Positions 4,973 through 49,985 of a stretch of DNA of 64,000 bases are shown here, piece by piece. The number at the start of each line of letters is the position of its first letter. Within the stretch, counting starts at the first letter, position 1. Position numbers and translations under genes: made by a program. Source of the stretch: Roseateles depolymerans. Its GTDB lineage: Bacteria > Pseudomonadota > Gammaproteobacteria > Burkholderiales > Burkholderiaceae_C. Location of the stretch: the NCBI RefSeq assembly GCF_003387155.1, contig NZ_QUMT01000005.1, positions 248,001-312,000 on the forward strand. The letters are read 5' to 3'. The notes beneath the pieces are model-generated. The model had not been told where the DNA came from and made no database searches. It worked only from the letters and a program-made list of their open reading frames with translations.

Positions 4973-5077
4973 GCATGCCAACAGGGCGGGGGGTATTTGC
5001 TCCATGTCATTCCTGTCCGGCTTCGCCGGCCATTCCCTTCTTAACTTCCGCAAATACCCCCCGCCCTGTCGGCATGC
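4973..5077 (-). repeat. Variable-arm hairpin repeat, copy A
   Basis: Arms of 27 bases (4973-4999 and 5051-5077) are complementary at 26 positions. The one exception is A.C on the plus strand and G.U on the minus strand. They enclose a 51-base core (5000-5050) that on the minus strand begins CGGAAGTTAAG, has an inner hairpin CCGGC-GAA-GCCGG and ends GACATGGAG. The same core occurs in copies B, D and, with a 68-base insert, C; copy E keeps the ends. The arms of the five copies differ in sequence. Outer flanks on the minus strand are ACTCGAG before and GCGCAGTCAGAG after, shared with copy C. It lies between the ftsZ terminator and the histidine kinase. Confidence 0.9.
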
Positions 5078-5400
5078 TCGAGTCGTGCACTTCCTCGGGC
5101 TCAACCGGCGCGGCTCTTCAGGGGGGGACATTCGCTTCGAAACGCGTCATTCGCGCGGCGCGGCAACTATGCCCAACTTCTCATGGACACACGAGCCCGG
5201 AATTGCAACAAGCGATCCCCGGACACCGTCCACTTGCGGGGGCCACTCTTTCCCACCCTCCTCCCCTCCACGTCTGCTCCGCCAGCACAAACATGCGCTG
5301 ACCCTCTACGGATCACCATCCATCATGGGAACGGTTTGGGTACAGGTGCCAGATGGCGCGGGAACAGATGAGCTCATCCGCCATCAGGAATCAGTGGGCG
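5078..5400. other. Intergenic region without a recognised gene
   Basis: About 320 bases between hairpin copy A and the terminator after ftsZ. Both strands have open frames in this GC-rich sequence, but none has a ribosome-binding site joined to a protein-like composition. The sequence around 5190-5330 is less GC-rich than its surroundings. Nothing further is seen. Confidence 0.5.
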
Positions 5401-5434
5401 AAAAGAAAAAAGGCCATGCCGGGAGGCATGGCCT
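5401..5434 (-). terminator. Rho-independent terminator after ftsZ
   Basis: On the minus strand an 11-bp stem AAGGCCATGCC with a four-base loop is followed by the T-rich run TTTTTTCTTTT. It lies about 60 bases after the ftsZ stop and would end the dcw transcript, separating it from the histidine kinase and lpxC. Confidence 0.85.
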
Positions 5435-5494
5435 TGATCGCTGATGGTGAGCAGTGGGGGGCGGGGTCAGGCCGCCGCCATCCCCATCGGGATC

Positions 5495-8085: not shown

Positions 8086-8093
8086 GCCAGTCC

Positions 8094-8933: not shown

Positions 8934-8957
8934 GGCTCGTGGTGGGGGACGGAGTCC

Positions 8958-29298: not shown

Positions 29299-29748
29299 GG
29301 CAGAACTCCGGACGACAGCGGTCAGGCTCGGCCCAAAGGTGGGCGCAGCCAAGGCGCTTTTTGCGGCGCCTCTTCTCTGAATGTCGGCAGCGGGAGCGGC
29401 GACTTGAGACGCCGAACGGTGTCGGGGTGGTAAATCCTGCCGGGGATCGGGGGGCAGATGGGGCGGGGGATCGGTGGCGGGCGCGTCGGAAAGAGGAAGC
29501 CCGGGGCCCCTTTGCTCCATGTCACTCCTGTCCGGCTGCGCCGGCCATTCCCCTCTTTACTTCCGCAAAGGGGCCCCGGGCTCCCTCTTTCCTGCACCGA
29601 GTACTGCCAGCAGGGCGGAGGACTGCGGTCGCCGCGCAGCTGTGGGCAACGCTGTAGGTCTAGTCGCTAACGTCCATCAGCCACGTGGGTAGGCCGGGGC
29701 GCGTGCCACAGAGGTGCGCTTGCGCAGATCCAGGCCCGGTCTGCGGGG
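29299..29748. other. Intergenic region holding hairpin copy B
   Basis: The 450 bases between the exporter stop and the carbonic anhydrase start contain the hairpin repeat at 29488-29592. Outside it no gene, promoter or terminator could be supported. Confidence 0.5.
29488..29592 (-). repeat. Variable-arm hairpin repeat, copy B
   Basis: Arms of 27 bases (29488-29514 and 29566-29592) pair at 26 positions; the exception is G.U on the minus strand and A.C on the plus strand. The 51-base core at 29515-29565 reads, on the minus strand, CGGAAGTAAAG, inner hairpin CCGGC-GCA-GCCGG, then AGGAGTGACATGGAG. The flank before it on the minus strand is GCAGTACTCGGTG. Only arm composition, not sequence, resembles the other copies (purine-rich outer part, GC-rich middle, CTTTG next to the core). 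Confidence 0.9.
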
Positions 29749-32093: not shown

Positions 32094-32145
32094 AGCTTCT
32101 CGGGGGACTCTGCTGGAGGTGTGCGGCGGGTTCTCTGCCTGCGCT

Positions 32146-32318
32146 AGATCAGGAAGGCGGGAGCCCCTTCCCCTCCATGCCAGGGCCCGAGGCCCTGGCC
32201 TTCGCTAGGCTCAAACAGTCCACAGGACTGTTTGAGTCCGAGCTCAGTCCCTTCTGTCCGGCTTCGCCGGCCATTCATTCCTTGACTTCCGGGGAAGGGG
32301 CTCCCGCCTTCCTGATCT
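32146..32318 (-). repeat. Variable-arm hairpin repeat, copy C, with 68-base insert
   Basis: Arms 32146-32172 and 32292-32318 are perfectly complementary over 27 bases. The core (32173-32291, 119 bases) matches copy D except for a 68-base insert at 32180-32247. The insert holds two perfect hairpins: an 8-bp stem CCAGGGCC with loop CGA (32180-32198) and a 12-bp stem CTCAAACAGTCC with loop ACA (32210-32236). The conserved inner hairpin CCGGC-GAA-GCCGG (minus strand) is kept. It lies between two convergent genes. Outer flanks CTCGAG and GCGCAGGCAGAG resemble copy A. Confidence 0.9.
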
Positions 32319-32381
32319 CGGACTCGAGTACTGCTGAAGGGGCAGAGCGGCATGGCAGAGGCTGTCGCGCTGCGGCATCGC

Positions 32382-33836: not shown

Positions 33837-34009
33837 GGGAGCTTCCTGCAATGAAGCCCCCATGCTAAGAGGAAATGGGAGGCCCTGGGAGCCTGTGCGT
33901 TCCTACAGAAGGGCCAACAAGAGATCAGCCCCATGGGCACGCGGGTCGGGCGATAAGCGTGTGGACGTGGGGGGCTGGCAGGGACGCTGGCGCCACAACC
34001 CTCAGCGGC

Positions 34010-34465: not shown

Positions 34466-34539
34466 GTCCGCCTGCGGGCAATTCCCGTTCCCGGCAGAAA
34501 CCACCCGAGTGCCCGCCCGGCCGGACACCCGCCGTCCCC

Positions 34540-34545
34540 TACAAT
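34540..34545 (+). promoter_or_regulatory. Likely -10 box of rnpB
   Basis: TACAAT lies eight bases before the first base of the RNase P RNA, a good distance for transcription to begin at the P1 helix. No clear -35 box is seen in the GC-rich sequence before it. Confidence 0.5.
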
Positions 34546-34553
34546 GCGCCGGT

Positions 34554-34888: not shown

Positions 34889-34893
34889 ACACT

Positions 34894-35886
34894 TTATTCA
34901 TCATCCCCGGACGTCTGCTCCTGGTCATTGCGCTTGCGGGCCTGCTTCTGCAAAGGGGCCTCCAGGCGCTGCATCCCGTCCACGAAGCTGTCCACCGGCT
35001 TGGGCGTCACCAGGCGCAGCGCAGGCGGAGGCAAGGCACTCAGGTAGTTGGGGCCCAGCCAGTGCTGCTGTTCAGTCCGCCGACCCACCGTGAGCACCAG
35101 GCCCAGCAGCGCCATGCCGCCAATGGCCAGCGCCAGACGGCGACGCGGACGGGGCCACACCACCGTGGCATGCCACCACAGCAGCGCCGCGCCGCCAACG
35201 GACACCGCCAAAGTGTCCAGGGCCATCAGTCGCGGCCAGGACAAGGCATACGCCAGCACCGGCAGCGTCACGTCCAGCAACTGGAACACCAGGCTCACCA
35301 CCAGCGCCCGCCACAGGTGGGCGCCGAAGGCGAACCAGTGGCGGAAGAGCTGTGTCACCAGCGCCCAGGCCGCCGCCCAGGTCAGCGCCAGCGCCACCGG
35401 CATCAGCACGCCGCTGATGGTGTCCACCCAGGTGCTGCTGCCGTCAGTGCCGGACCAGTTGGTCAGCCAGAGCACCAGCAGCCACAGCACGCTCACCGCC
35501 GGCAGGGCCCAGGCCGGACGCGCGTCGCGGCGCATGGGTTCGTCGGCGCGGGGCAGCGGTTGCTCGTCCGGGAGCGCGTCCAGCGCGGTGCGCAGGCGCA
35601 ACCGGGTGCTGCCGAGTTGAACGACGTTCTGGGCGGTCCAGGGGGCCGTGGCGCCGGCGCCCAGCCGCTGGCCGTCCAGCCAGCCGCCGTTGCGGCTCTC
35701 CAGCAGCTCCAGTCGTGCGCCTGCCTCGGTCCAGTGCAGCAGGGCATGGGCGCCCGCCAGATGCGGGTCGGGCAGCACCAGGTCGGCAGACGGCGCGCGG
35801 CCAATGGTCAGCGGCCACTGGCGGACTTTGTGGGTCTCGCGGCAGTGACCCTCGCGGTCCAGGATCTCGATTACCGCGTGGTCCAT
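34894..35886 (-). CDS. FHA-domain membrane protein
   Basis: A 330-residue protein. Residues about 1-100 form a forkhead-associated (FHA) phosphothreonine-binding domain, with the core motifs IGRAPSADLVLPDPHLAGAH (in parts IGRAPSADLV and DPHLAGAHALLHW) and SRNGGWLDGQRL. About 190 residues with six hydrophobic helices follow, then a charged C-terminal tail. The gene overlaps the end of the upstream protease by 16 bases, so the two are co-translated and probably act together at the membrane. The phosphorylated partner is unknown. Confidence 0.85.
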   Translation of the reverse strand: MDHAVIEILDREGHCRETHKVRQWPLTIGRAPSADLVLPDPHLAGAHALLHWTEAGARLELLESRNGGWLDGQRLGAGATAPWTAQNVVQLGSTRLRLRTALDALPDEQPLPRADEPMRRDARPAWALPAVSVLWLLVLWLTNWSGTDGSSTWVDTISGVLMPVALALTWAAAWALVTQLFRHWFAFGAHLWRALVVSLVFQLLDVTLPVLAYALSWPRLMALDTLAVSVGGAALLWWHATVVWPRPRRRLALAIGGMALLGLVLTVGRRTEQQHWLGPNYLSALPPPALRLVTPKPVDSFVDGMQRLEAPLQKQARKRNDQEQTSGDDE

Positions 35887-37328: not shown

Positions 37329-37458
37329 GCGACATTGCTCCTTCTAGGACCCCGGGGAAACCGTGGGGAGATCCCGAGGGCTCAAGCGTACATCGTGGCG
37401 CGGATGCGCCGGTGGGGGATGGGCAAAGAACCGCCGCATTCGGTTGGGCTGAGCGGAC

Positions 37459-37559
37459 GCGGAGACCAGGGGCACCCTGTTTCCTCCATGTCCCTTCTGC
37501 CCGGCTGCGCCGGTCATTCATTCCTTGACTTCCGGAAACAGGGCACCCCTGGTCTCCGC
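37459..37559 (-). repeat. Variable-arm hairpin repeat, copy D
   Basis: Arms 37459-37483 and 37535-37559 pair over 25 bases except two adjacent positions in the middle, which are C.A and A.C on the plus strand but U.G and G.U on the minus strand. Two further outer positions are unpaired or wobble, giving a possible 27-base arm. The 51-base core (37484-37534) on the minus strand reads CGGAAGTCAAGG, inner hairpin CCGGC-GCA-GCCGG, then AAGGGACATGGAG. The flank before it on the minus strand is GGGCTCGGTGG. Confidence 0.88.
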
Positions 37560-37711
37560 TCACCACCACCGAGCCCGGACAAGAAAAACCAGCGCTTCAC
37601 GGACACCCTGCCCGCCCCCTCTTCTCACATTGGGCTGGCGCCCCGCGCCTAGCCCACCCTCAAGCCACACCCGCGGAACTGGCTTTGCCAGGCCGCTGGG
37701 TGGCGCCCCTT

Positions 37712-37778
37712 GGGGGCAGGAGCGTGAGCGACTGGGGGGCCCTTCATTCAGGGGCAGGAGCGAAGCGACTGGGGGGCC
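37712..37778 (+). repeat. Two direct copies of a GC-rich intergenic repeat
   Basis: Two near-identical units lie at 37712-37742 and 37751-37778, each containing GGGGCAGGAGCG, then TGAGCGACT or AAGCGACT, then GGGGGGCC. They are separated by the short AT-richer spacer CTTCATTCA. Similar short GC-rich intergenic repeats are common in Burkholderiales genomes; the function is unknown. Confidence 0.75.
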
Positions 37779-37790
37779 AACGGTTCTCGG

Positions 37791-38825
37791 CTAGATCATT
37801 TTCCAGTGCAGGGATTCGCCGCCGCGCAGTGGCTTGAGCTGCGCAGCCTCGCCGAAAGGCACCGCCTCAGGCAGCGTCCATTCAGTCTTTTGCAGCGTGA
37901 CGCGCGTCGTGTTGCGCGGCAATTCATAGAAGTCCGGGCCGTGGAAGCTGGCGAACGCCTCCAGCTTGTCCAAGGCACCCGCAGCCTCAAAAGCCTCCGC
38001 ATACAGCTCCATCGCAGACAGCGCCGTGAAGCAGCCCGCCCCGCACACCGAGTTCTCCTTCATGACCGACGCGTGCGGCGCACTGTCCGTGCCAAGGAAG
38101 AACTTGGGACTGCCGGAAGTCGCCGCCTTGATCAGGGCCAGGCGGTGCTCTTCCCGCTTGAGCACCGGCAGGCAGTAGTAGTGCGGACGCAAGCCCCCCA
38201 TGAAAATGGCGTTGCGGTTGTAGAGCAGATGCTGCGGCGTGATGGTGGCGCCCGTGAAGCGGTCCGCGTCGGTGACGTACTGCGCCGCTTCCTTGGTCGT
38301 GATGTGCTCGAACACCACCTTCAGCTCAGGAAAGTCCTTGCGCAGCGGCCGCATGATGCGGTCCACAAACACCGCCTCCCGGTCGAAGACGTCCACCTCC
38401 GGGTCCGTCACCTCACCATGCACCAGCAGCAGCAGGCCCGCCTTCTGCATGGCCTCCAGCGTGGCGTAGGTCTTGCGAATGTCAGTGACCCCGTGGTCAC
38501 TGTTCGTGGTGGCGCCGGCCGGATAGAGCTTCAGCGCCACAACACCCGCCGCCTTGACCGCGGCAATGTCCTCAGGCGTGGTGCGGTCGGTGAGATACAG
38601 CGTCATGAGCGGCGTGAAGTCCACGCCCGCAGGGACGGCCGCCATGATGCGGGCCCGGTACGCCTCAGCCTGCGCCGCCGTGGTGATGGGCGGCTTGAGG
38701 TTGGGCATCGCAATGGCGCGGGCAAACTGGCGGGCGGTGTAAGGCACAACACTTTGCAGCGCAGCGCCGTCGCGCAGGTGCACATGCCAGTCGTCCGGAC
38801 GGATCAGGGAAAGGGTGTCGCTCAT
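37791..38825 (-). CDS. pyrC: Dihydroorotase PyrC
   Basis: A zinc amidohydrolase that cyclises carbamoyl-aspartate to dihydroorotate in pyrimidine synthesis. The 344-residue product starts [20 protein letters not shown]; the metal motif is WHVHLRD. The carboxylated lysine is in [19 protein letters not shown] (VALKLYPAG), the later metal ligands in LLVHGEV and FEHITT, and the catalytic Asp in LGTDSAPH. This is the short class II type of E. coli. Confidence 0.96.
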
Positions 38826-38839
38826 GGCCGGAGATTGTC

Positions 38840-38884
38840 GCACTGCCCAAAAAGAAAAAGCCCGCCTCCTGGGAAGCGGGCCTT
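38840..38884 (-). terminator. Rho-independent terminator after gltL
   Basis: On the minus strand the stem GGCCCGCTTCCCAGGAGGCGGGC (GCCCGC paired with GCGGGC) is followed by TTTTTCTTTTT. It lies about 145 bases after the gltL stop and just before pyrC, and so ends the gltIJKL transcript. Confidence 0.88.
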
Positions 38885-38915
38885 AGGCAGTCATCGGTGC
38901 AATCACCATGCAAGC

Positions 38916-38987
38916 ATCGGCACAGGGACAAGCACCGGTAACGGCACCAGTCACCGCATCAGTACCGGCACCAGTAACGGCACAAGG
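38916..38987. repeat. 12-bp minisatellite, six units
   Basis: Six consecutive 12-base units (atcggcacaggg, acaagcaccggt, aacggcaccagt, caccgcatcagt, accggcaccagt, aacggcacaagg) lie between the gltL stop and its terminator. Their shared pattern is ACCGGCACCAGT. The array is untranslated if gltL ends at 39029 and would be part of the 3' end of the glt mRNA. Confidence 0.8.
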
Positions 38988-39028
38988 GGCGGCGCTGGTG
39001 GCCTCAGGGCCGTCCAGGCCCCGGTCAA

Positions 39029-39763
39029 TCAGTGCTGCAGGATCTTGTTCAGGAAGTCCTTGGCGCGCGGCGAACGAGCTTCCGGATTGTTGAAGAACTC
39101 GTCCTTGGTGCAGTCCTCGATGATCTTGCCGGCGTCCATGAAGATGACCCGGTTGCTGACCTTGCGCGCAAAACCCATTTCGTGGGTCACGCACATCATG
39201 GTCATGCCCTCGTTGGCCAGCTGCACCATCACGTCCAGCACTTCACCGACCATTTCCGGGTCCAGGGCCGAAGTGGGCTCGTCAAACAGCATGACGATCG
39301 GGTCCATCGACAGCGCACGGGCAATCGCCACACGCTGCTGCTGACCCCCAGAGAGCTGGCCCGGGAACTTGTCCTTGTGCGCCATCAGGCCCACGCGGTC
39401 CAGCATCTTCAGGCCGCGCGCCTTGGCGTCGTCCTTGCTCCGCCCCAGGACCTTGATCTGCGCCAGCGTGAGGTTGTCCGTCACCGACAGGTGCGGGAAC
39501 AGCTCAAAGTGCTGGAACACCATGCCCACCCGCGAACGCAGCTTGGGCAGGTTGGTCTTGGGATCGGTCAGGCTGGTGCCGTCCACCACGATGTCGCCCG
39601 CCTGGATCGGCTCCAAAGCGTTCACCGTCTTGATCAGCGTGGACTTGCCCGAGCCCGACGGCCCGCACACCACCACGACCTCGCCCTTGCGGATGCTGGT
39701 CGTGCAATCGGTCAGCACCTGGAAAGGGCCGTACCACTTGGAGACATTCTTGATTTCGATCAT
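39029..39763 (-). CDS. gltL: Glutamate/aspartate ABC transporter ATPase GltL
   Basis: The ATP-binding subunit of a polar amino acid importer, 244 residues. Walker [11 protein letters not shown] (about 32-41), Q-loop QHFELFPHL, signature [15 protein letters not shown], Walker [16 protein letters not shown] and H-loop CVTHEMGFA are intact. It is the last gene of the gltI-gltJ-gltK-gltL unit, 12 bases after gltK. Confidence 0.94.
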
Positions 39764-39775
39764 GGCGCAGGGACC

Positions 39776-40456
39776 TCAGCGAATGATGGCGATCTTCTTC
39801 TGCAAACGGCGGACCAGCATGGACAGGCTGAAGCAGATGACGAAATAAACGGCGGCAACCGCCAGGTAGGTTTCAACTGGACGCTGAATATTCTTGCCAG
39901 CGGTCTCGAAACCCTTGAGCAGGTCATACGCACCGATGGCATACACCAGCGACGTGTCCTGGAACAGCACGATGGTCTGCGTGAGCAGCACCGGCAGCAT
40001 GTTGCGGAACGCCTGCGGCAGCACCACCAGGCTCATGGTCTGGCGGTAGTTCATGCCCAAGGCATACCCAGCAAAACTCTGACCCTTGCTGACCGACTGG
40101 ATGCCGGCCCGCATGATTTCAGAGTAGTAAGTGGCCTCGAACAGCGTGAAGGTGATCAGCGCCGTGGTCTCGGGCGCGAAATTGCCCCAGCCCATGGCCT
40201 GCGTGGCATAGGGCAGCAGCAAATACACCCACAAAATCACCAGCACCAGCGGAATGGAGCGCAGCGTGTCCACATAGATCGCCGCCGGCACCTCCAGCCA
40301 CTTGCGGCCGGACAGCCGCATCATCGCCAGCAAGGTGCCCAAAATGATGCCGCCCAGCATGGCCATCAGGGTCAGCTGGAAGGAGAAGATCAGGCCCTTG
40401 GAGACATACGCGGACAGCGTCTCCCAGGTCAGCCGGGAAAAATCAAGATCCGTCAT
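39776..40456 (-). CDS. gltK: Glutamate/aspartate ABC transporter permease GltK
   Basis: An inner-membrane permease of 226 residues of the HisM/GlnP group. The start MTDLDFSRL lies one base after the gltJ stop. The EAA loop, which contacts the ATPase, is YALGMNYRQTMSLVVLPQAFRNMLP, seen in parts ALGMNYRQTM and VVLPQAFRNMLP. About five hydrophobic helices are visible. It forms a heterodimeric channel with GltJ. Confidence 0.93.
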   Translation of the reverse strand: MTDLDFSRLTWETLSAYVSKGLIFSFQLTLMAMLGGIILGTLLAMMRLSGRKWLEVPAAIYVDTLRSIPLVLVILWVYLLLPYATQAMGWGNFAPETTALITFTLFEATYYSEIMRAGIQSVSKGQSFAGYALGMNYRQTMSLVVLPQAFRNMLPVLLTQTIVLFQDTSLVYAIGAYDLLKGFETAGKNIQRPVETYLAVAAVYFVICFSLSMLVRRLQKKIAIIR

Positions 40457-40457
40457 G

Positions 40458-41192
40458 TCACTTGGCTCCCAGGATGCCAGGCACACGCACCGACACTTCA
40501 ATCAGCTTGGCCACCCGGTTGATGGCGAACCCCGACACGAAATACAGCACCGTCACCGGCAGGAAAATCTGCAGGAAGCTGGACTGCTCGGACGCCTGCT
40601 GCGCATATTGCGTCAGCTCAGGAATGCCGATGGCAAAGGCCACGGCAGAGTTCTTGACGATGTTCATGCTTTCGCTGGTCACCGGCGGAATCACGATGCG
40701 CAGCGCCATCGGCAGCAGCACATGGCGGTAGGTCTGCGGCAGCGTCAGGCCCAGGGCCTGGCCGGCATAGCGCTGCCCCTTGGGCAAGGTCAGGATGCCG
40801 GCCTTGACCTGCTCGGAAATCCGGGCCGAAGTAAACAGGCCCAGGCCGACAAAGGCCAGCACCATCGGCGGCACCGACTGCGCCCCCGGAATCAGCCGCG
40901 GCAGCACGTGATACCAGAGGAAGAGCTGGACGATCAGCGGAATGTTGCGGAAGAGCTCGGTCCAGGCCTCGCCCAGCCAGGCCACCTTGCGGTTAGGCAC
41001 CGTGCGCAGGATGCCCACCAGGATGCCCACCACCAGGGCCACGGCCAGACCCAGCAACGCGAGGGTCATGGTCCAGCCCCAGGCATGCACCATCGCATCC
41101 AGGTAGGTCTCATACCCCTTCGCACCAAAACACTTCGGTGCGACCTCTTCGGTCACCATGTCCGTGCAGTACAACTGCCAGTCCCAGCTCAT
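40458..41192 (-). CDS. gltJ: Glutamate/aspartate ABC transporter permease GltJ
   Basis: The partner permease of 244 residues, starting MSWDWQLYC at 41192 after GGAGG with six-base spacing. An N-terminal region with two Cys (LYCTD and PKCFGAKG) precedes the first helix WGWTMTLALLGLAVAL. The EAA loop is ALGLTLPQTYRHVLLP. It is separated from gltI by 117 bases that hold two strong hairpins, so it is probably expressed at a lower level than the binding protein. Confidence 0.93.
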   Translation of the reverse strand: MSWDWQLYCTDMVTEEVAPKCFGAKGYETYLDAMVHAWGWTMTLALLGLAVALVVGILVGILRTVPNRKVAWLGEAWTELFRNIPLIVQLFLWYHVLPRLIPGAQSVPPMVLAFVGLGLFTSARISEQVKAGILTLPKGQRYAGQALGLTLPQTYRHVLLPMALRIVIPPVTSESMNIVKNSAVAFAIGIPELTQYAQQASEQSSFLQIFLPVTVLYFVSGFAINRVAKLIEVSVRVPGILGAK

Positions 41193-41215
41193 GGCCAGCC
41201 TCCATTCATCCATAC

Positions 41216-41242
41216 AAAAGGGGCCGCCTTGGCCGCGGCCCC
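41216..41242 (-). terminator. Intergenic hairpin with T-run between gltI and gltJ
   Basis: On the minus strand the stem GGGGCCG / CGGCCCC with a nine-base loop is followed by TTTTG. It would act as a partial terminator that lowers permease expression relative to the binding protein, a common design in such operons. Confidence 0.65.
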
Positions 41243-41268
41243 ATCACCCACCTTCCAGCGCTTGCGAC

Positions 41269-41290
41269 AAGGCGCCCCGCGGGGCGCCTT
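41269..41290. repeat. 22-bp perfect palindrome after gltI
   Basis: AAGGCGCCCC and GGGGCGCCTT flank a central GC, forming a perfect palindrome 19 bases after the gltI stop. No T-run follows on the minus strand, so it more likely protects the 3' end of the gltI message from exonucleases than ends transcription. Confidence 0.65.
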
Positions 41291-41309
41291 GAGGCTTGGC
41301 CGGAACGGC

Positions 41310-42203
41310 TTACTTCTTGGCGTATTCCTCGACCGGCTTGTCGTTCGGATTCGCCCAGGCCGCCTTCGTCGCTTCCGAGGCCGGCATGTTCAGCTTGGCA
41401 TTGACCGGGGGGATGGGCTGCACGAACCACTTGTCATACAGCTTGGCAATCTCGCCCGACTTCATCATGCCCTTGATGCTGTCGTCCACAGCCTTCTTGA
41501 AGGCCGGGTCGTCCTTGCGGATCATGATGGCGATCGGCTCGACCGACAGGGTTTCACCCACGATCTTGTACTCAGCCGGGTTCTTGGACTTGGCAATGTT
41601 GCCAGCCAGGATCTGGCCGTCCATCACGAACGCATCGGCGCGGCCCGATTCCAGCAGCAGGAAGCTGTCGGCGTGGTCCTTGCCCAGCACTTCCTTGAAG
41701 TCCACGCCGTTGGCGCGCTCATGCTTGCGCAGCAGTTGCACGGAGGTGGTGCCGGTGGTCGTGGCCACCGTCTTGCCGTTGAGCTGGCTGATGGACGTGA
41801 TGCCGGAGTTGGCCTTCACCGCAATGCGCACTTCCTCGACATAGGTCGTGACCGCAAAAGCCACGTCCTTGGCGCGGGTGGCGTTGTTGGTGGTGGAGCC
41901 GCATTCGATGTCCACGGTGCCGTTCTGCACCAGGGGCACGCGGTTCTGCGAGGTCACCGGCAGGTACTTGATGTCCAGCTTGGCCAGGCCCAGCTGCTTT
42001 TGCACGTCCGCCAGCACGCGTTGGCAGACCTCGACGTGGTAGCCCACGTACTTGCCGTCACCCAGGGTGTAGGACAGGGCGCCCGAGGATTCGCGCACGC
42101 CCATGGTCACGCTGCCCGAGTCCTTGATCTTCTTCAGCGTATCGGCCTGAGCCACACCGGCCAGAGCGGCGCCAAGGGCCAGGACAAGCATTGCCTTCTT
42201 CAT
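41310..42203 (-). CDS. gltI: Glutamate/aspartate periplasmic binding protein GltI
   Basis: A solute-binding protein of 297 residues. The start MKKAMLVLALG at 42203, with AGGAG upstream, gives a signal peptide cleaved after GVAQA. Family features are GVRESSGALSY near the N-terminus, the DIECGSTTNN motif with a conserved Cys, and the hinge segments GKTVATTTGTT. The GSTTNN segment contacts the ligand carboxylates in acidic amino-acid binding proteins. It is the first gene of gltIJKL. Confidence 0.93.
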   Translation of the reverse strand: MKKAMLVLALGAALAGVAQADTLKKIKDSGSVTMGVRESSGALSYTLGDGKYVGYHVEVCQRVLADVQKQLGLAKLDIKYLPVTSQNRVPLVQNGTVDIECGSTTNNATRAKDVAFAVTTYVEEVRIAVKANSGITSISQLNGKTVATTTGTTSVQLLRKHERANGVDFKEVLGKDHADSFLLLESGRADAFVMDGQILAGNIAKSKNPAEYKIVGETLSVEPIAIMIRKDDPAFKKAVDDSIKGMMKSGEIAKLYDKWFVQPIPPVNAKLNMPASEATKAAWANPNDKPVEEYAKK

Positions 42204-42328
42204 AAGTGCTCCTGCAAATTCGGAATCGAATTGTGTCTGTGAACGGGCGAAGCAGACCACGTACGGGCGGTCTGACGGATAGGGAGTATTACGCATCTCA
42301 AGGGGGGCGCCCAGATGTCATGCACGAT

Positions 42329-43258
42329 TCATGCCGTGCCACCACCCGGCTGGTTGAGGAACGACCACAGGGCCTGGGCCACGGGCTTGACACGCCGCGT
42401 GGTGGCCTGGCGCTCCCGGTACATGCGCAACTCCATGTTCAGTTCATAGTGGCCGGGTTCCGCAGCGCGGACCAGCCGACGGGCCTTCACTTCCTTCTTC
42501 ACCGAGCTGGCCGGCAGGAAGGCCAGACCGTGCCCCTCCAGGGCCATGGCCTTGAGGCTTTCGGCCATGTCCGTCTCGAAGACGGATTCCAGATTCAGCG
42601 GCAGTGCGGCGTCCTTGACGATCAGCTCCACCAGGCGCCCGAGATAGGCGCCCGAGGCGTAGCTCAGAAACGGGATTTTCTGCCCAGGATGGCCGGTGAT
42701 GCGGAACATCGGCGCCCCGGCAGCGTCCGCCTTCGCATAGGCGGACAGGGTTTCGTGTCCGAGGGACACCGACTCGTAACGCTCCGGGTCCAGCTGCAGC
42801 GGCTGGCTGGGATGGTGATAGACCACCAGCAGGTCGCAGTTGCCTTCGCTAAGTTGCAAGGTAGCGTCGTGCACATTCAAAGCATTCAGCCGGCACTTCA
42901 CTTCGCCGAAGCGCTGGCGCAACTCCATGAGCCAGTGCGGGAAGAAGCTGAAGGACAGGGAGTGCGGGACGGCGAACTCGATCATGTCCTGGCCGGCCGA
43001 CTGGTGGCTGCGCAGCATGTTGCGCGTGGCCTGGAGGTTGCCCAGCAGGTCGACCGCCTGCCCGAGCAGGGTCTCACCGGCAGCGGTCAGCCGGGTGGGA
43101 TAGGACGAGCGGTCCACCAGATCCACGCCGGCCCAGGCCTCGAGCGCCTGGATGCGCCGTGAGAAGGCGGGCTGCGTCACGTGTCGCAGCTGGGCCGAAC
43201 GCGAGAAGCTGCGCGTCTCCGCCAAACTCACAAAGTCTTCAAGCCACTTGGTTTCCAC
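42329..43258 (-). CDS. LysR family transcriptional regulator
   Basis: A 309-residue regulator with an N-terminal winged HTH (WLEDFVSLAETRSFSRSAQL and VTQPAFSRRIQALE) and a C-terminal substrate-binding domain. It reads in the same direction as gltIJKL and ends 125 bases before gltI, so it may sense acidic amino acids and control the transporter; this is inference from position. The start is a GTG at 43258; CATAAT lies a few bases upstream of it, so the message may have a very short leader. Confidence 0.9.
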   Translation of the reverse strand: METKWLEDFVSLAETRSFSRSAQLRHVTQPAFSRRIQALEAWAGVDLVDRSSYPTRLTAAGETLLGQAVDLLGNLQATRNMLRSHQSAGQDMIEFAVPHSLSFSFFPHWLMELRQRFGEVKCRLNALNVHDATLQLSEGNCDLLVVYHHPSQPLQLDPERYESVSLGHETLSAYAKADAAGAPMFRITGHPGQKIPFLSYASGAYLGRLVELIVKDAALPLNLESVFETDMAESLKAMALEGHGLAFLPASSVKKEVKARRLVRAAEPGHYELNMELRMYRERQATTRRVKPVAQALWSFLNQPGGGTA

Positions 43259-43330
43259 GAGGCGGGATTATGCCCGCGCGCCAAGGGCTCAGGCCGGTGC
43301 GCCTCGTGCTCATCCGGACGCGCCGAGCGC

Positions 43331-45199
43331 TCATTCCGACGCGCTGGGTGCTGAGGCCGGCGTGCCGGCGGGGCTGCCGCCTTGCCCGTCCTGCTGCATG
43401 GACCACATCTGCGCATAACGGCCCTGCTGCGCCAGCAACTGCGCATGGGTGCCCCGCTCCACGATCTCGCCATGCTCCATCACCAGGATCTCGTGCGCAT
43501 CCACGATGGTGGACAGGCGATGGGCGATCACCAGCACCGTCTTGTTTTCGGCGGCGGCTTCCAGTTCGGCCTGGATGGCCCGCTCGTTGCGGGAATCCAG
43601 GGCCGAGGTGGCCTCGTCGAAGATCAGGATGGGCGGATTCTTCAGCAGCGTGCGGGCGATGGCCACCCGCTGCTTCTCCCCGCCGGAGAGCTTCAGGCCC
43701 CGCTCGCCCACCATGGTCTGGTAGCCCTGCGGCAGGCTGCTGATGAAGCTGTGGATGTGGGCCGCGCGGGCGGCGGCCTCCACCTCCTCGGTGCTGGCTT
43801 CCGGGCGTCCGTACGCGATGTTGTAGGCGATGGTGTCGTTGAACAGCACGGTGTCCTGCGGCACGATGCCGATGGCGCGGCGCAGGCTCTGCTGCGTCAC
43901 CTGGACCAGCGGCTGGCCGTCGATGGTGATGCGGCCCCCGTCCACGTCATAGAAGCGATAGAGCAGCCGCGCCAGCGTGCTCTTGCCCGACCCGCTGGGC
44001 CCCACCACCGCCACCTTGCGTCCGGCCGGAATCTCGAAGGACACGCCCTTGAGAATCGGCCGGTCCGGCTCATAGGCAAACACCACGTCCTCGAAGCGCA
44101 CGGTCGCGCCGCGCACCTGCAGCGGCTGGGCCTGCGGCGTGTCGGCCACTTCCCGCTCCTTGGAGAGCAGGGCAAACATCTTGTCCAGGTCGGTCAGGCT
44201 CTGCTTGATCTCCCGATAGATCACCCCCAGGAAGTTCAGCGGGATGTAGAGCTGGATCATGAAGGCGTTGATCATCACCAGGTCGCCCAGGCTCATGTGG
44301 CCGTCCACCACGCCCTGGGTGGCCCGCCACAGCATGGCCACCAGGGCCGAGGCGATGATCACCTGCTGCCCGCTGTTGAGCAGCGACAGCGTGGTCTGCG
44401 ACTTGAGCTGGGCGCGGCGCAGTTGCTCCAGACTCTGGTCGTAGCGGGCGGCCTCGAAGTCCTCGTTGTTGAAGTACTTCACCGTCTCGTAGTTCAACAG
44501 CGAGTCGATGGCCTTGCTGTGGGCCACCGAATCCAGCTCGTTCAGCCGGCGGCGGAACTGGGTGCGCCACTCGGTGACCATCACGGTGAAGCCGATGTAG
44601 AACACGAGTGCGGCGCCGGTGATCCAGGCGAACATGGCGTCGAACTTGACGGCCAGCAGGCTGAGCACCAGCACCACTTCCACCAGCGTCGGGAAGATGC
44701 TGTAGAGGGAATAGGAAATCAGGGAATGCACGGCGCGGGTGCCGCGTTCGATGTCCCGGGTCATGCCACCGGTCTGGCGCTCCAGATGGAAGCGCAGGCT
44801 CAGGTCATGCAGATGGCGGAACACCTGCAGCGAGATGCTGCGGGAGGCGCCTTCGGTGGCCTTGGCGAAGATCAGTTCCCGGGCTTCGGTGAACAGCGAG
44901 GTGCACAGCCGCAGCAGTCCGTAGGCCAGCAGCAGGCCCACCGGCACCACCATCAGCGCCTGTGGGCTGCCGGGCTGCACGTCCAGGCTATCGACCAGCC
45001 GCTTGAGCAGCAGCGGCACGCTCACGTTGGCGAATTTCGCCCCAATCATGAAAGCCAGGGCCACGGCGACCCGCCAGCGATAGCGCCAGAAATACGGCAG
45101 CAGCCGGCCCACCGTCCGCCAATCGCCCCGGCGAGGGGTGCTGGCGTCGCTTGTGGGCGAGGAGGGAACAGGGTTGGGCAATGAAGAAGACCGGCGCAT
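43331..45199 (-). CDS. ABC transporter, Atm1/ABCB7-like half-transporter
   Basis: A fused membrane-ATPase half-transporter of 622 residues starting MRRSSSLPNP. Six helices occupy about residues 40-330, with the Atm1-type motifs ERQTGGMTRDIERGTR and LLNYETVKYFNNEDFEA (given as NYETVKYFNNE) that line the glutathione-binding region. Walker A is [17 protein letters not shown], the signature LSGGEKQRVAIARTLLK and Walker B ILIFDEATSALDS. Atm1 relatives export glutathione-linked sulfur or metal compounds. The C-terminal tail is Ala/Ser/Pro-rich. It is divergent from the thioesterase gene with a 78-base gap. Confidence 0.92.
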   Translation of the reverse strand: MRRSSSLPNPVPSSPTSDASTPRRGDWRTVGRLLPYFWRYRWRVAVALAFMIGAKFANVSVPLLLKRLVDSLDVQPGSPQALMVVPVGLLLAYGLLRLCTSLFTEARELIFAKATEGASRSISLQVFRHLHDLSLRFHLERQTGGMTRDIERGTRAVHSLISYSLYSIFPTLVEVVLVLSLLAVKFDAMFAWITGAALVFYIGFTVMVTEWRTQFRRRLNELDSVAHSKAIDSLLNYETVKYFNNEDFEAARYDQSLEQLRRAQLKSQTTLSLLNSGQQVIIASALVAMLWRATQGVVDGHMSLGDLVMINAFMIQLYIPLNFLGVIYREIKQSLTDLDKMFALLSKEREVADTPQAQPLQVRGATVRFEDVVFAYEPDRPILKGVSFEIPAGRKVAVVGPSGSGKSTLARLLYRFYDVDGGRITIDGQPLVQVTQQSLRRAIGIVPQDTVLFNDTIAYNIAYGRPEASTEEVEAAARAAHIHSFISSLPQGYQTMVGERGLKLSGGEKQRVAIARTLLKNPPILIFDEATSALDSRNERAIQAELEAAAENKTVLVIAHRLSTIVDAHEILVMEHGEIVERGTHAQLLAQQGRYAQMWSMQQDGQGGSPAGTPASAPSASE

Positions 45200-45277
45200 G
45201 GGTAGGGTCGTGTGCTCTGGCGCGTGCTGGACGACAATGGCGCCCATTCTCACCCCGGGCTCTCCCTGCTGCTGACC

Positions 45278-45706
45278 ATGAGCACCCCTACCCCCAAGTC
45301 TCCTGACACCTTGCCGCCTGCCGACGCGCTGGGCCCCCGTGAACTGGTGATGCGGGTCATGCCCATGCCGGCGGATGCCAACGGCAACGGCGACATCTTC
45401 GGCGGCTGGATCATGGCGCAGGTCGACCTGGCCGGTTCCGTGCTGCCGCTGCGTATCTCGCGGGGCCGGGTGGCCACGGTGGCGGTGAATGAATTCATCT
45501 TCAAGCAGCCGGTGTCCATCGGGGACCTGCTGAGCTTTTATGCCGAGGTCAAGCGCATTGGCCGCACCTCGATCACTGTGCATGTGGAAGTGTTTGCCGA
45601 ACGCAACCCGGCGAATCCGCATGTGGTGAAGGTGACCGAGGCCAACCTCACCTATGTGGCGATCGACCGTGAAGGCAAGCCGCGGGCGTTTGCCGAGCAG
45701 GCCTGA
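45278..45706 (+). CDS. Acyl-CoA thioesterase, YciA-like hotdog fold
   Basis: A cytoplasmic hydrolase of acyl-CoA esters, 142 residues from MSTPTPKSP. The hotdog-fold motif NGDIFGGWIMAQVDLAG holds the catalytic region (the Asn/Asp of ANGNGDIFGGW), followed by VNEFIFKQPVSIGDLL. Length and motif order match YciA. The frame is open to 45212, but those residues overlap the divergent promoter region. Confidence 0.9.
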   Translation: MSTPTPKSPDTLPPADALGPRELVMRVMPMPADANGNGDIFGGWIMAQVDLAGSVLPLRISRGRVATVAVNEFIFKQPVSIGDLLSFYAEVKRIGRTSITVHVEVFAERNPANPHVVKVTEANLTYVAIDREGKPRAFAEQA

Positions 45707-45875
45707 GGCTTGCCGCAGCGGCGACTCAGCGTTTGTGGACAAGGCTTCGCGCTGATGTCCCTCTGAATTTCAATCCGGACCATGGGGCAGGTGTCCAGGA
45801 CCTCCCTATGGGACTTTTCATCCCCCCAGGCGGTCCTGCAGTATGAAAGCCGCCATTTCCCAGGAGACACCCCCG

Positions 45876-47201
45876 ATGCAGCCCATCCCCGCATCATCCG
45901 CCCACACTGGCGCGCGTCCCGCGCCGGTGCCCTTCTATAAGCAGCTGTATGTCCAGGTGGTGGTGGCAATCGTCATCGGCGTCTTGCTGGGCTACTTCGA
46001 GCCGAAGTATGGGGTGGCGCTCAAGCCGCTGGGGGACGCCTTCATCAAGCTGGTGAAGATGATCATCGCGCCGGTGATCTTCCTGACCATCGTCACCGGC
46101 ATCGCCAGCATGACCCACCTCAAATCGGTGGGCCGGGTGTTTGGCAAGGCGATGGTGTACTTCCTGTTCTTCTCCACGCTGGCGCTGATCGTTGGCCTGG
46201 TGGTGGCGCATGTGGTGCAGCCGGGCGCCGGCATGAATGTGAACGTGGCCGACCTGGACCAGAAGGAAGTGCGCGGCTACGTGGATAAGACCCATGAGCT
46301 GACGATCACCGGCTTCCTGATGGACATCATTCCGAAGTCGCTGCTCGGCTCGCTGTCGGACGGCAACATCCTGCAGACGCTGTTCGTGGCGGTGCTGTTC
46401 GGGGTGGCGCTGTCGCTGTCGGGCGAGCGCGGCCGGCCGGTGCTGACCTTCATGGAATCGCTGACCGTGCCGGTCTTCCGTCTGGTGCACATCCTGATGC
46501 GTGCGGCGCCGATTGGTGCGCTGGGCGCAATGGCCTTCACCATTGGCAAGTACGGGGTGGCAGCGCTGGTGAACCTGGCGTGGCTGGTGGGCAGTTTCTA
46601 CATCACGGCGCTGCTGTTCGTGCTGGTGATCCTGGGCCTGGTGGCGCGCCTGTGCGGCTTCTCGGTCCTGAAGCTGATCCGTTATCTGAAGGCCGAGCTG
46701 CTGCTGGTGCTGGGCACCTCTTCGTCGGAATCGGCCCTGCCCTCGCTGATGGAGAAGATGGAGAAGGCCGGTTGCGAGAAGACGGTGGTGGGCCTGGTGG
46801 TCCCGACCGGCTATTCGTTCAACCTGGACGGCACCAACATCTACATGACGCTGGCGGCGCTGTTCATTGCGCAGGCCACCAACACTGAACTGACGCTGGG
46901 CCACCAGATCTCGCTGCTGCTGGTGGCGATGCTGAGCTCCAAGGGCGCGGCGGGCGTGACGGGGGCGGGGTTCATCACCCTGGCGGCGACGCTGTCGGTG
47001 GTGCCGGAAGTACCGGTGGCGGGCATGGCGCTGATTCTGGGCGTGGACCGCTTCATGTCCGAATGCCGTTCGCTGACCAACTTCATCGGTAATGCCGTGG
47101 CCACGGTAGTGGTCTCGAAGTGGGAAGGCGCGCTGGACATGAAGAAGCTCCAGGAGGCCCTGAATTCGCCGGTCGATCCGGACGACGCCCCGATCGCCTG
47201 A
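45876..47201 (+). CDS. dctA: C4-dicarboxylate transporter DctA
   Basis: A DAACS-family symporter (glutamate-transporter fold) that takes up succinate, fumarate and malate with protons or sodium. The ATG at 45876 follows AGGAGA with eight-base spacing and gives 441 residues; an ATG at 45843 lacks a ribosome site. Eight helices and two re-entrant loops are seen. Key motifs are [16 protein letters not shown] (first hairpin loop), [16 protein letters not shown] (helix 7), and [17 protein letters not shown]-like [16 protein letters not shown] (helix 8). A weak sigma-54-like GG-N10-GC lies at 45700, but within the previous gene's end. Confidence 0.95.
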
Positions 47202-47227
47202 GGACCTTCGCGGTACCTGGATGAACA

Positions 47228-47249
47228 CACGGGCCCTGCGGGGCCCGTG
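47228..47249 (+). terminator. Hairpin after dctA, possible terminator
   Basis: A 9-bp stem CACGGGCCC with loop TGCG lies 26 bases after the dctA stop, followed only by CCTGTTTCC. The T-run is short, so termination may be partial. Confidence 0.5.
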
Positions 47250-47266
47250 CCTGTTTCCGGGCCGAG

Positions 47267-48076
47267 ATGTCCAAAGTCACTCGCCAGCGGAGCGCGGGGC
47301 CGTTAAGTTGCGGATCTTCGCCACTTCGAGCAGTGATCGTGCCGCCCGCTCCTGGACCTCTCGGACTCGACACCAACACCCCGGCCCTGGACGCGGGGAC
47401 CTTGTGCCTTCAGCAGTCCAAGCCCCCGGGGCCCTTGTGCGGGGTCACCGGACCCGCCGCCACGGCGGCGCCGGCGCTGGATGCGCAGACGCGCAAGCTG
47501 GCGGCCATTGCGTTTGGTGAGGCGTCCACGGCCAATGATCCGGATGAAATCGGCGGCATCGCCTGGGCCGTTGCCAACCGCTGCAGAGCCTGGGGCGGCA
47601 AGACCGTGGACCAGTTGCTCACGGCCGATCCCAACTACACCTATGCGGTCAAGGACGGCAATGCGCGCTATGGTCAGTTCATGGGGGCCACAACTGCGCA
47701 GATTGCTGCCGACCCTGGCATGAAACTCGCCAGGGAATGGGCCGAAAACGCCTTGGCCAGCCGGGGCAAGGACCCGTCCAACGGTGCTTATTGGTGGGAC
47801 GGCAAGGACTTCAAGACCAACTTCAAGAACCATCCCAAGGTCAAGGACGGCTTCCGTTTTGGCGACCCGTCCCACAACATTTTCGGGGTGAAAGAGCCGG
47901 TGAACGACGAGACGGTGACCTACTGGACTGCCAAGAAGAATGGGGTGCTGGTCAACGTCAAGGAGCGGGGTCGCTACACTGCGGTGTGGGTCTCCACCGC
48001 TGCACATGGGTCCACGATTTTCTGGACGCATCCCCAGGACTATCTCACCGCCACTGGCGGCAAGAGCTACCGCTGA
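47267..48076 (+). CDS. Putative cell-wall hydrolase-like protein
   Basis: A 269-residue protein. The first 65 residues are Pro/Gly/Leu-rich (PPAPGPLGLDTNTPALDAG) without a clear signal peptide. Residues about 75-150 resemble the core of SleB/CwlJ-type hydrolases: LAAIAFGEAST, with the Glu at the catalytic position, then EIGGIAWAVANRC. The remainder has YWWDGKDFKTNF and HNIFGV motifs of unknown role. The next gene starts five bases after the stop and encodes an exported protein, so the pair may be a toxin with its periplasmic inhibitor; this is inference. No secretion-system gene is nearby. Confidence 0.6.
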   Translation: MSKVTRQRSAGPLSCGSSPLRAVIVPPAPGPLGLDTNTPALDAGTLCLQQSKPPGPLCGVTGPAATAAPALDAQTRKLAAIAFGEASTANDPDEIGGIAWAVANRCRAWGGKTVDQLLTADPNYTYAVKDGNARYGQFMGATTAQIAADPGMKLAREWAENALASRGKDPSNGAYWWDGKDFKTNFKNHPKVKDGFRFGDPSHNIFGVKEPVNDETVTYWTAKKNGVLVNVKERGRYTAVWVSTAAHGSTIFWTHPQDYLTATGGKSYR

Positions 48077-48080
48077 CACC

Positions 48081-48758
48081 ATGAACCGAAACCTTGCTGC
48101 GGCCTTGCTTGCCGCTGCCATGAGTATGGCGCACGCTGCCGATGGCGAGGCCAACGTCTTTGAGGGATACGACGACTTCTACAGCAGCCTGCCTTCACGA
48201 CTGTTCAGCCCCGCAGACCTTCGCAAGGTCGCCCGCGGCGGACTGGGGGAGCCGGCGGGCGACTTCTGGAAGTTCACCCTGGACGGGGGTGCGGCGCATG
48301 TTCTGGAACTGCGGGGGCCTGACGTCATCCTGGATGGACGGCGCATCGCTGCCGCGCGTGCCATCCGCTTCGAGGGGGAACCGCCGGCCCCGTCATTGGG
48401 CCGCACGGCCCGGGTCTTTGCGAATGAAGAGGCCGTCTGCGTCGAAGGTGTGCCGAGCAGCGCCAGCGGCACGGCGGTGCGGCATGTGCGGGTGTGGCTG
48501 ATCAAGCAGCCCTATGGCCCACAGGCGCAGCGCTTCGAACTGCCCAGCCTCTTTGCCAGTTGCCTGGCTCTCTCCCGAGACCCGGACGGCATAGGATTTT
48601 TCAAGGCCAGCTACCGCTGGCCCGAAGGGCAACCGGAGGCGCTGGGACTGACGCTGACCCCCTGGCGTCTCCAGGGGAGGCGCTTCGTCCCTGCGGGCGA
48701 GCCCCGGACCACCACCTTCGTTGAGCCCGGGAACCTCTACCGCTTTACTGCGCCCTGA
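48081..48758 (+). CDS. Exported hypothetical protein, partner of the upstream gene
   Basis: A 225-residue protein with a signal peptide (RNLAAALLAAAMSMAHA, cleaved near AHAA). The mature part is rich in Phe, Arg and Pro, with FEGYDDFYSSLPSRLFS near the N-terminus, and two Cys (AVCVEG and FASCLAL) that could form a disulfide. No family was recognised. ATG follows the previous stop by four bases, so translation is coupled. Its place directly after a hydrolase-like gene is the main clue to its role. Confidence 0.6.
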   Translation: MNRNLAAALLAAAMSMAHAADGEANVFEGYDDFYSSLPSRLFSPADLRKVARGGLGEPAGDFWKFTLDGGAAHVLELRGPDVILDGRRIAAARAIRFEGEPPAPSLGRTARVFANEEAVCVEGVPSSASGTAVRHVRVWLIKQPYGPQAQRFELPSLFASCLALSRDPDGIGFFKASYRWPEGQPEALGLTLTPWRLQGRRFVPAGEPRTTTFVEPGNLYRFTAP

Positions 48759-48761
48759 AGA

Positions 48762-49523
48762 TCAGAACTTGGAGAAGTCCGGCTGACGCTTCTGGAAGAA
48801 GGCCTGGAAGGCTTCGATGGCTTCGGGGCTGCGCAGGCGGGCGCCGAAGATCTCTGCTTCCACCTGGATGGTGTTCAGCAGTTCTTCCTCGGTGCTGCGG
48901 CGCATCAGCTTCTTGCTCTCCATCACGGCGGTCGGCGGCAGGCTGTTGAAGCGCTCGGCGACGCGGCGGGCGTAGTTCACCACTTCGCCGGCGGGCAGCA
49001 CGCTGTTGGCAATGCCATATTCCACGGCCTGTTCGCCGGTGAACGGATCGCCCAGCAGCAGCTTCTCCGCGGCGCGGCGCTGGCCCATCAGGCGGGGCAC
49101 GATCAGGCTTGAACCGAACTCCGGCACCAGGCCCAGGCTGACGAAGGGCATGGCCAGGCGTGCATCGTCGGCCACGTAGACCAGATCGCAGTGCAGCAGC
49201 AGCGTGGTGCCGATGCCGATGGCGGCGCCGTTCACGGCGGCGACGATGGGCTTGTTGCAGCCGATCATGGCCTTCATGAACTGGAAGACGGGGGCTTCCT
49301 CGTCCCGGGGCGGGCTGGCCATGAAGTCTTCGATGTCGTTGCCCGACGTGAAGATGGACGGCTGGCCCTGGATCAGCACCGCGCGGACGGTCTTGTCGTC
49401 GTTGGCGGCGACCAGTGCGTCGGCCATGGCCTGGTACATCGCACGGGTCAGTGCGTTCTTCTTCTCGGGACGCGCGATCTCGATGGTCAACACGCCGTTG
49501 ACGATGGCGGTCTTGATGCTCAT
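48762..49523 (-). CDS. Enoyl-CoA hydratase/isomerase family protein
   Basis: A crotonase-fold enzyme of 253 residues. The CoA-binding and oxyanion segments are FTSGNDIEDF and AAVNGAAIGIGTTLLLHCD, with the Pro-rich FVSLGLVPEFGSS that follows. The Glu of LVPEFGSS sits at a catalytic position, while the first catalytic Glu of true hydratases (in the GAAIGIGTT helix) is not evident, so isomerase or another crotonase reaction is possible. AGAGGAG lies seven bases before the ATG. It is the last gene of the beta-oxidation set, convergent with the exported-protein gene. Confidence 0.88.
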   Translation of the reverse strand: MSIKTAIVNGVLTIEIARPEKKNALTRAMYQAMADALVAANDDKTVRAVLIQGQPSIFTSGNDIEDFMASPPRDEEAPVFQFMKAMIGCNKPIVAAVNGAAIGIGTTLLLHCDLVYVADDARLAMPFVSLGLVPEFGSSLIVPRLMGQRRAAEKLLLGDPFTGEQAVEYGIANSVLPAGEVVNYARRVAERFNSLPPTAVMESKKLMRRSTEEELLNTIQVEAEIFGARLRSPEAIEAFQAFFQKRQPDFSKF

Positions 49524-49985
49524 GGAGCGACTCCTCTCAAAACGAATTGCATGATGCTACCGGTGATCCACCTGTCCTGAGGCTTCGAAGCTTCTAGGCT
49601 TCGATGCCCACCTGGATTCCTGCCACGAGCCCGAATACGGTCTTGATGGAGGAAGCGGTTGAGTACGGACTCGATCTGCGCATTTGCCAGCGCCGATCCG
49701 TGGCGGCACTGCTGCGTGTTCTACGCTGGTTGGCTCGGTGAATCGCAAGAGGGGGATGGGCCCCCTGTTTTCGGAAGTATTAGGGGGAGACCGCGGAGCG
49801 GTCGGAGGACATGGAGAAAACAGGGGGCCCATCCCCCTCTTGCTGGCGCTCGGTCGTTCGCAACCACTACCCTCGGGCTGTTTGCCTATCGATAAAACAA
49901 AAAGGGGAGAAGACCCGCCCCCGTCCCATTTCAATGGAACAGCAGCTTCCCTTCCCCCCCTTTGATGGCTAACGAGCCGCTCGAC
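49524..49985. other. Intergenic region with hairpin copy E
   Basis: The 462 bases between the thiolase stop and the enoyl-CoA hydratase start contain hairpin copy E (49745-49843). An A-rich stretch (ATAAAACAAAAAGGGG) lies at about 49893. No gene is supported. Confidence 0.5.
49745..49843 (+). repeat. Variable-arm hairpin repeat, copy E (reverse orientation)
   Basis: Arms 49745-49771 and 49817-49843 are perfectly complementary over exactly 27 bases. The core (49772-49816, 45 bases) keeps the family ends CGGAAGT and GGACATGGAG but has a different inner hairpin: GACCGC-GGA-GCGGTC. So both the arms and the inner stem differ from copies A-D while the GNA triloop and the core ends are kept. CTCGGTG lies four bases before the first arm. 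The sense strand is plus here, opposite to the flanking genes. Confidence 0.88.

Follow-up and report, generated by a model that had tools for sequence, protein, structure and literature searches.

The 64,000-nt window of Roseateles depolymerans studied here (contig NZ_QUMT01000005.1, positions 248,001 to 312,000) contains five copies, named A to E, of a hairpin that recurs throughout the genome and numbers dozens of copies in certain other bacterial genomes. The whole element measures about 135 nt; a 27-28-bp stem, which may take any sequence provided that its two sides pair, carries a conserved tip. The hairpin family is real and widespread and, judging from the open-licence literature and Rfam, apparently undescribed. 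Its core strand is the strand that folds and is under selection, and the fold is a rod consisting of an outer helix of free sequence and nearly fixed length (27-28 bp), a purine-rich internal loop, and a short apical stem. According to our best reading, the hairpin is not assignable to a known family, works like a structured RNA and disperses like a REPIN. In its full form, this reading sees a dispersed multicopy element that acts through one strand as a folded RNA, whose arms are maintained by selection along with template-switch repair and whose copies have spread in a REPIN-like manner; it is held tentatively, at slightly less than even confidence.

Covariation between the arms is the first line of evidence. 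In 21 ungapped copies (set A2, comprising 21 of the 23 copies with a 51-nt core, with L013 and L018 left out for their shorter arms), 98.2% of 735 cells are paired, which speaks against arms that are complementary no more often than chance, the outcome that the first-pass annotation of this DNA had named as fatal to its proposal. Double-sided changes occur at 27 of 35 pairs, 25 of the 28 arm pairs among them, and the covariation score is 0.662 as compared to 0.168 after shuffling and at most 0.155 after sliding. Forty-six diverse copies give a score of 0.990 against 0.198 when shuffled, with double-sided change at 35/35 pairs, in an alignment that was fitted to a covariance model and therefore leans towards pairing. 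All these statistics are judged against shuffled or slid controls and are not tree-aware. The purine-rich internal loop covaries as well, in a non-Watson-Crick manner. Among 175 copies selected by regular expression, 152 show one of five reciprocal combinations of 5' and 3' sides, for example GAGGA/GGGGG or GGGGA/GGAGG, and the position neighboring the loop is A-T in 150, G-C in 21, G-T in 3, and A-C in 1, numbers that count copies and not events because the copies share ancestry. Template switching gives Watson-Crick complements, so it should not create purine-purine covariation of this kind.

The strand that folds can be read from the imperfect pairs. Thirty own-genome copies were chosen by their core alone (34 copies have an exact core, four of them without a locus; of 31 regular-expression matches one, with 14/27 positions paired over a spurious 144-nt span, was dropped by a filter of at least 20 paired positions). 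Their 810 cells, written in the frame of the core, contain 32 G.T, 1 A.C, and 12 other mismatches. Neutral transitions would yield G.T and A.C equally, and the asymmetry has a binomial p of 8e-9. It persists when 18 cells belonging to tandem wobbles are removed (G.T 14, A.C 1), and the G.T excess is present in elements on both genome strands. In 69 copies, partly selected by a model that itself favors G.U, the counts are 82 and 3. All nine tandem wobbles, several of them inherited, are of the 5'-UG/3'-GU kind, which is the preferred kind of tandem wobble in RNA. From the mismatch asymmetry and the loop covariation it follows that one strand folds and is selected, and RNA is the simplest reading of the asymmetry. 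Significant covariation of a strand-specific secondary structure, the mark of structured RNAs, is thus found in this hairpin.

Pairing is also kept between species. The window interval 31000-50900 is matched in all 15 other genomes of the genus, and the regions corresponding to the five window sites were compared in six of them. At site A, the hairpin is present in G008 with one paired change from G-C to T-A and is partly decayed in G001; site D has orthologues in G008 and G001 in which changes are compensated, and site E has orthologues with paired, compensated changes in G008, G012, and G011. At sites B and C, none of the six genomes has a hairpin at the matching position. Across five genomes, 62 cross-species pairs of model-found copies match on both flanks, and all 62, which are not independent of each other, keep at least 23 of 27 base pairs on both sides despite many paired changes. 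In the 37 pairs with at least 20/27 identical positions, both sides changed together by transition in 27 cases and by transversion in 38, 6 changes were of other kinds, and of the single changes 43 led to or from G.U and 18 to another mismatch; in the 19 pairs with at least 24/27 identical positions, 6 paired transversions stand against 4 transitions. Such a share of paired transversions is consistent with one arm serving as template for the repair of its partner, or with exchange with another copy, and passages of PMC8794818 document template switching as a source of compensated stems. Orthologues with paired substitutions, the strongest test put forward for the idea that the arms change in compensation or that one arm is renewed from its partner, are therefore at hand at sites A, D, and E and across the 62 pairs, and together with the within-genome covariation they strongly support that idea.

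Within the window, all five hairpins were located and folded where they had been annotated. Copies A (4973..5077; arms 4973-4999 and 5051-5077, core 5000-5050), B (29488..29592; arms 29488-29514 and 29566-29592, core 29515-29565), and D (37459..37559; arms 37459-37483 and 37535-37559, core 37484-37534) have their core on the minus strand, and its length of 51 nt, as claimed for these three, is correct. Copy C (32146..32318; arms 32146-32172 and 32292-32318), also on the minus strand, has a 51-nt core split by an extra hairpin module of 68 nt (core 32173-32291), whereas copy E (49745..49843; arms 49745-49771 and 49817-49843) lies on the plus strand with a core of 45 nt (49772-49816). The near-complete pairing reported for the arms stands, but most of what had been counted as mismatches are wobble pairs. 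Among the 27 innermost arm positions, copies A and B have one G.T each, copy D has a tandem G.T/T.G and one A.G, and copy E has no departure at all; copy C is fully paired in its fold. Copy B has a near-identical paralogue (L015/L466). When the complete window was scanned for loops of 30-140 nt closed by stems of 22 or more positions (no more than 2 mismatches), exactly these five hairpins came out, compared to none in any of 20 windows simulated by a first-order Markov model, and no sixth window copy was found by the covariance model at E<=0.001.

In core orientation, an element consists of a 5' flank of about 15 nt, an arm, the core, the complementary arm, and a 3' flank of about 14 nt. Arms usually measure 27-28 nt, with a range of 22-45 nt in the own genome, where the copy at G000:C1:283108-283151 (L003) has a perfect arm of 45 bp. 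The recurrence of flanking motifs, seen at the outset, is real, although in 106 genus copies the motifs are weak and degenerate: the 5' flank GCAGTCCTCGGTtcg is weakly conserved, the 3' flank GGCGCAGTCAAAGAA is degenerate, and beyond these roughly 15 nt nothing conserved is evident. In the same copies, the 20 nt next to the 5' foot contain an exact GCAGT in 29/106 cases, against 3/106 at a control distance (63 and 29, respectively, if one mismatch is allowed), and GCAGTCA with up to one mismatch follows the 3' foot in 32 cases compared to 5 in the control. In the window, on the minus strand, copy A has a weak 5' flank motif of the GCAGTCCTCGGT type (5078..5092) and the 3' flank motif GGGCGCAGTCAGAGG (4958..4972), and copy C has a 5' flank motif of the GCAGTACTCGAG type (32319..32334) and the 3' flank motif AGCGCAGGCAGAGAA (32131..32145). 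Cores in the own genome are of two types, 51 nt and 44/45 nt, and other species have longer inner stems; the part most conserved across distant genomes is approximately AAGTAAAGGAGGAG, a stem, and CGGGGGACAT, with variants. The two-hairpin module of copy C (32179..32246, minus strand) sits at GGGAC^ATGGAG. Its pattern, TGAGCYCGGAC...GGACTGTTTG.GCCTRGCGAAGGCC..., has 14 exact matches in 7 of 250 genomes of the taxonomic family, eight of them (L501, L502, L506, L507, L511-L514) at exactly this point inside a core and the remaining six (L503-L505, L508-L510) away from any such hairpin, so that the module seems to be a second dispersed element aiming at this point of the core. Two arrangements in the own genome may be added: three copies in tandem that repeat every 146 nt, have individual arms and include two core types (G000:C1:665886-666282; L007, L458), and two divergent copies with an identical 44-nt core (G000:C6:240859-241275).

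The own genome (G000, 5.66 Mb) contains 34 occurrences of a two-box core pattern, of which a reversed control contains none; beyond this genome the pattern is too loose, and the matches listed there fall mostly in unrelated phyla, so that of them only L123, in a MAG labelled Rubrivivax, was used. A covariance model made from 21 core-selected copies gives 57 matches at E<=0.01 in the own genome, which reduce to 55 places once two hairpins that also match in reverse are counted singly; a few of these places are partial or carry inserts. The expectation of many copies with 27-bp arms and significant covariation is borne out by these 55 places and by arm pairs that covary far above the shuffles. 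Covariance model R1, whose match counts include a hairpin twice if its reverse strand passes (corrected for G000 only), detects the hairpin in 15 of 16 genus genomes, the own one included, and in 57 of 250 genomes of the taxonomic family and 46 of 141 genera, and it missed at least six genomes of that family that model R2 found (G035, G081, G109, G127, G153, and G161). With R2, 18 of 399 genomes of an order sample are positive, nine of them in one family and two in another, as are 11 of 398 genomes of a phylum sample, four of which come from one family of another order of the same class. The three samples overlap, and the counts are lower bounds because the large samples were scored with strict filters. 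The distribution is very patchy. Divergent pairs, with 5' sides facing each other across spacers of 37-158 nt, occur at 10 of 28 family-level loci and at 14 of 22 order- or phylum-level loci. Neighboring copies in the same direction occur in L367 and L496, and none of these 50 loci outside the genus has a convergent pair within 300 nt. Genus copies are mostly single, with a few other loci having two or more and one of them being a divergent pair (L422); a search for a decayed partner hairpin at 56 single-copy genus loci (E<=5) returned known copies and one match with an E of 2.6. A blastn search of two copies against 72,556 plasmid records gave no match and is insensitive because the arms differ between copies.

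Comparison with described systems assigns the hairpin to none of them. No Rfam family reaches its gathering score in the window except the bacterial RNase P RNA class A (RF00010, 203.7 bits), which lies elsewhere, at 34554-34892 on the plus strand. In permissive scans of one window stretch and five loci, all hits remain below threshold, the best being mir-617 (33.8 bits, cut-off 80, E 9e-4) and the best bacterial family ar7 (12.7 bits, cut-off 60). Neither there nor in the open-licence literature was a description of this hairpin family found, and the exact match to a described family that would have undone the proposal did not appear. Structured RNAs of Rfam likewise combine pair covariation with a conserved internal loop. 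Resemblance to REPINs and BIMEs consists in tens of intergenic copies, divergent pairs, tandem clusters, and variable arms of constant length, and for REPINs the arms are described as complementary and as carrying compensatory changes (passages of PMC3116915). In contrast to REPINs, which have inverted terminal 16-mers, the present family has a conserved hairpin tip and weak 15-nt flanks, no conserved GTAG/GTGG head, a single selected strand, and no consistent RAYT; GTRG lies within reach of the 5' foot in 21/106 copies and on the other strand in 4/106. In REP systems, the RAYT (Y1) gene is flanked by two inverted repeats (section of PMC2817692), and among the Y1 loci read here hairpin adjacency is confined to G000, G008, and G011. 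SLS families, ERIC, and NEMIS/Correia are likewise dispersed intergenic repeats that fold as long stem-loops, and a title cited in PMC2267715 states that RNase III processes such hairpins in messenger RNAs; in the partial descriptions by which they are set apart here, a fixed-length stem of free sequence with a covarying purine loop is not seen (PMC2267715). With IS200/IS605 elements, which act through strand-specific folded hairpins in single-stranded DNA (portion of PMC8266576), the family shares such a hairpin but not an association with Y1. A search for attC-like 7-mers gave 2/106 copies with such a motif near the feet, and integrases were not searched for. Integron attC sites resemble the family in that their single-stranded DNA folds, in a strand-specific way, into hairpins with bulges. 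The first-pass annotation had offered three identities: a structured RNA is favored by the strand asymmetry, strict membership in the REP or attC classes fails their defining tests, and non-autonomous dispersal is likely but unproved.

A Y1 transposase was considered as a general mobilizer. In G000, G008, and G011, one hairpin precedes a Y1_Tnp gene on its upstream side, and for G000 only, Pfam confirms the Y1 domain as well as an upstream gene for an HD-associated phosphohydrolase, which we take to be dGTPase-like (dgt), just as we take the Y1 protein to be of the RAYT kind. The corresponding Y1 loci of G001, G012, and G005 have no hairpin, the neighborhood being common to G008, G012, G001, and G005 as judged by eye, and in G006 Y1 genes are present and the hairpin was not found. 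Y1 matches occur in 45 of 57 genomes of the taxonomic family with the hairpin and in 142 of 193 others (p 0.49), or in 50/63 and 137/187 (p 0.40) if the six genomes found by R2 only are moved over. As there is no co-occurrence bias and Y1 loci exist without the hairpin, a general role of Y1/RAYT is rejected. At L476 (~1132-2137) and L473 (~511-885), several repeats of the 3' foot with its flank (..GGCTTTCGAGCGCAGTCAGAGAACC) lie between hairpin and Y1 gene, by eye as if the 3' boundary had been repeatedly duplicated.

Among the explanations that compete with a dispersed structured RNA, a cis-acting hairpin of messenger RNA, serving a neighboring gene as a stabilizer in its 3' untranslated region, as an RNase III site, or as a terminator, would find some support in gene context, which was derived from gene calls made by a home-made codon model and not from annotation. 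Stop codons are closer on the 3' side (median 69 nt, 62 cases) than on the 5' side (157 nt, 60 cases), in 45 cases the first 60 nt on the 5' side are free of gene starts, and of 107 copies 26 are at convergent and 9 at divergent sites, with 2 at edges. REP elements prefer gene 3' ends, and the context of the hairpin recalls that. However, with tandem neighbors the sense is the same in 34 and opposite in 35 copies, and a U tract, as in intrinsic terminators, follows neither foot on either strand in any of 106 copies, so this explanation appears improbable. The lack of orientation bias, the convergent excess, and the location of only 1 of 107 copies inside a called gene point to a self-standing element, and the context argues against a leader or terminator as common role. 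A self-standing small RNA gene with its own promoter and terminator is unsupported, there being no U tract, no A+T dip, and no conservation evident beyond about 15 nt. Neutral maintenance, in which old inserted palindromes without function would be kept identical in their arms only by template-switch (quasipalindrome) correction during replication, could account for paired double transversions even between the close orthologues mentioned above, and stems compensated through such switching have been documented (PMC8794818). It is disfavored and has little probability, since it predicts neither an excess of G.T over A.C in the core frame for both element orientations nor purine-purine covariation in the loop, nor a core conserved over several families.

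The most serious competitor is a non-autonomous mobile hairpin of single-stranded DNA, similar to REPINs or PATEs, which an HUH-type or other transposase would recognize by its conserved internal loop and short flanks, a need that would keep the arms complementary together with gene conversion between copies. Ends that are well defined and bordered on either side by GCAGT-type motifs, the divergent pairs frequent outside the genus, the tandem triplet with its 146-nt period, site turnover, the patchy spread over several families, and the copies beside a RAYT-like Y1 gene would all fit such an element, as would the constant-length, variable complementary arms that REPINs also possess (PMC3116915, in part). 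A change of core at a fixed locus belongs here too. Nevertheless, we consider this explanation less likely than the folded RNA. Orthologous copies stay paired although many of their pairs have changed, and transposition by itself would not compel this once a site is settled. Y1 is equally frequent without the hairpin, the Y1 loci of G001, G012, and G005 lack it, Y1 genes occur in G006, where it was not found, and a Y1 match is missing from 12 of the 57 genomes that have the hairpin. Several observations do weigh against a folded RNA as set out at the beginning. The mismatch asymmetry proves the strand and not RNA, because single-stranded DNA also tolerates G.T better than A.C, and the count of 35 double-changed pairs in the 46-copy alignment was matched by 49 of 500 shuffles. 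Just 7 of 30 combinations of window site and genome are occupied (A 2, B 0, C 0, D 2, E 3), with 3/5 in G008 and 0/5 in the two more distant G015 and G002, and sites are therefore gained and lost; the 62 orthologous pairs require both copies to be found by the model and leave lost or decayed copies uncounted. Paired transversions exceed paired transitions (38 and 27, respectively) beyond what stepwise compensation through G.U predicts. At one locus, L460 and L431/L395 have almost the same arms and yet different core types, which suggests that copies exchange cores, and this switching, the divergent pairing outside the genus, and the patchy distribution resemble mobile DNA. Finally, the genus copies were seen to have neither a conserved promoter or terminator nor an A+T-rich dip upstream.

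If the element does work as a structured RNA, it would be transcribed in the direction of its core, and the conserved internal loop might be a docking site for an RNA-binding protein or a processing enzyme, whereas the outer helix may be a generic double-stranded handle of which the length matters and the sequence does not. Selection at the RNA level would keep the arms paired, in combination with template-switch repair in which one arm restores its partner, and copies may have multiplied by non-autonomous, REPIN-like dispersal. A bolder proposal, which is possible though we would not expect it, is that the family represents a new class of mobile, multicopy structured RNA, SINE-like or REPIN-like, in which a protein reads the purine-purine loop and measures the 27-28-bp helix of free sequence, while template switching renews the helix that is peculiar to each locus and selection preserves it at sites that species have in common.

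The family provides a clear natural record of compensatory stem evolution, consisting of dozens of paralogous and orthologous 28-bp stems that carry one conserved tip, and it offers a test bed for how perfect stems stay perfect, be it by stepwise compensation or by template switching. Its conserved purine loop predicts a binding partner.

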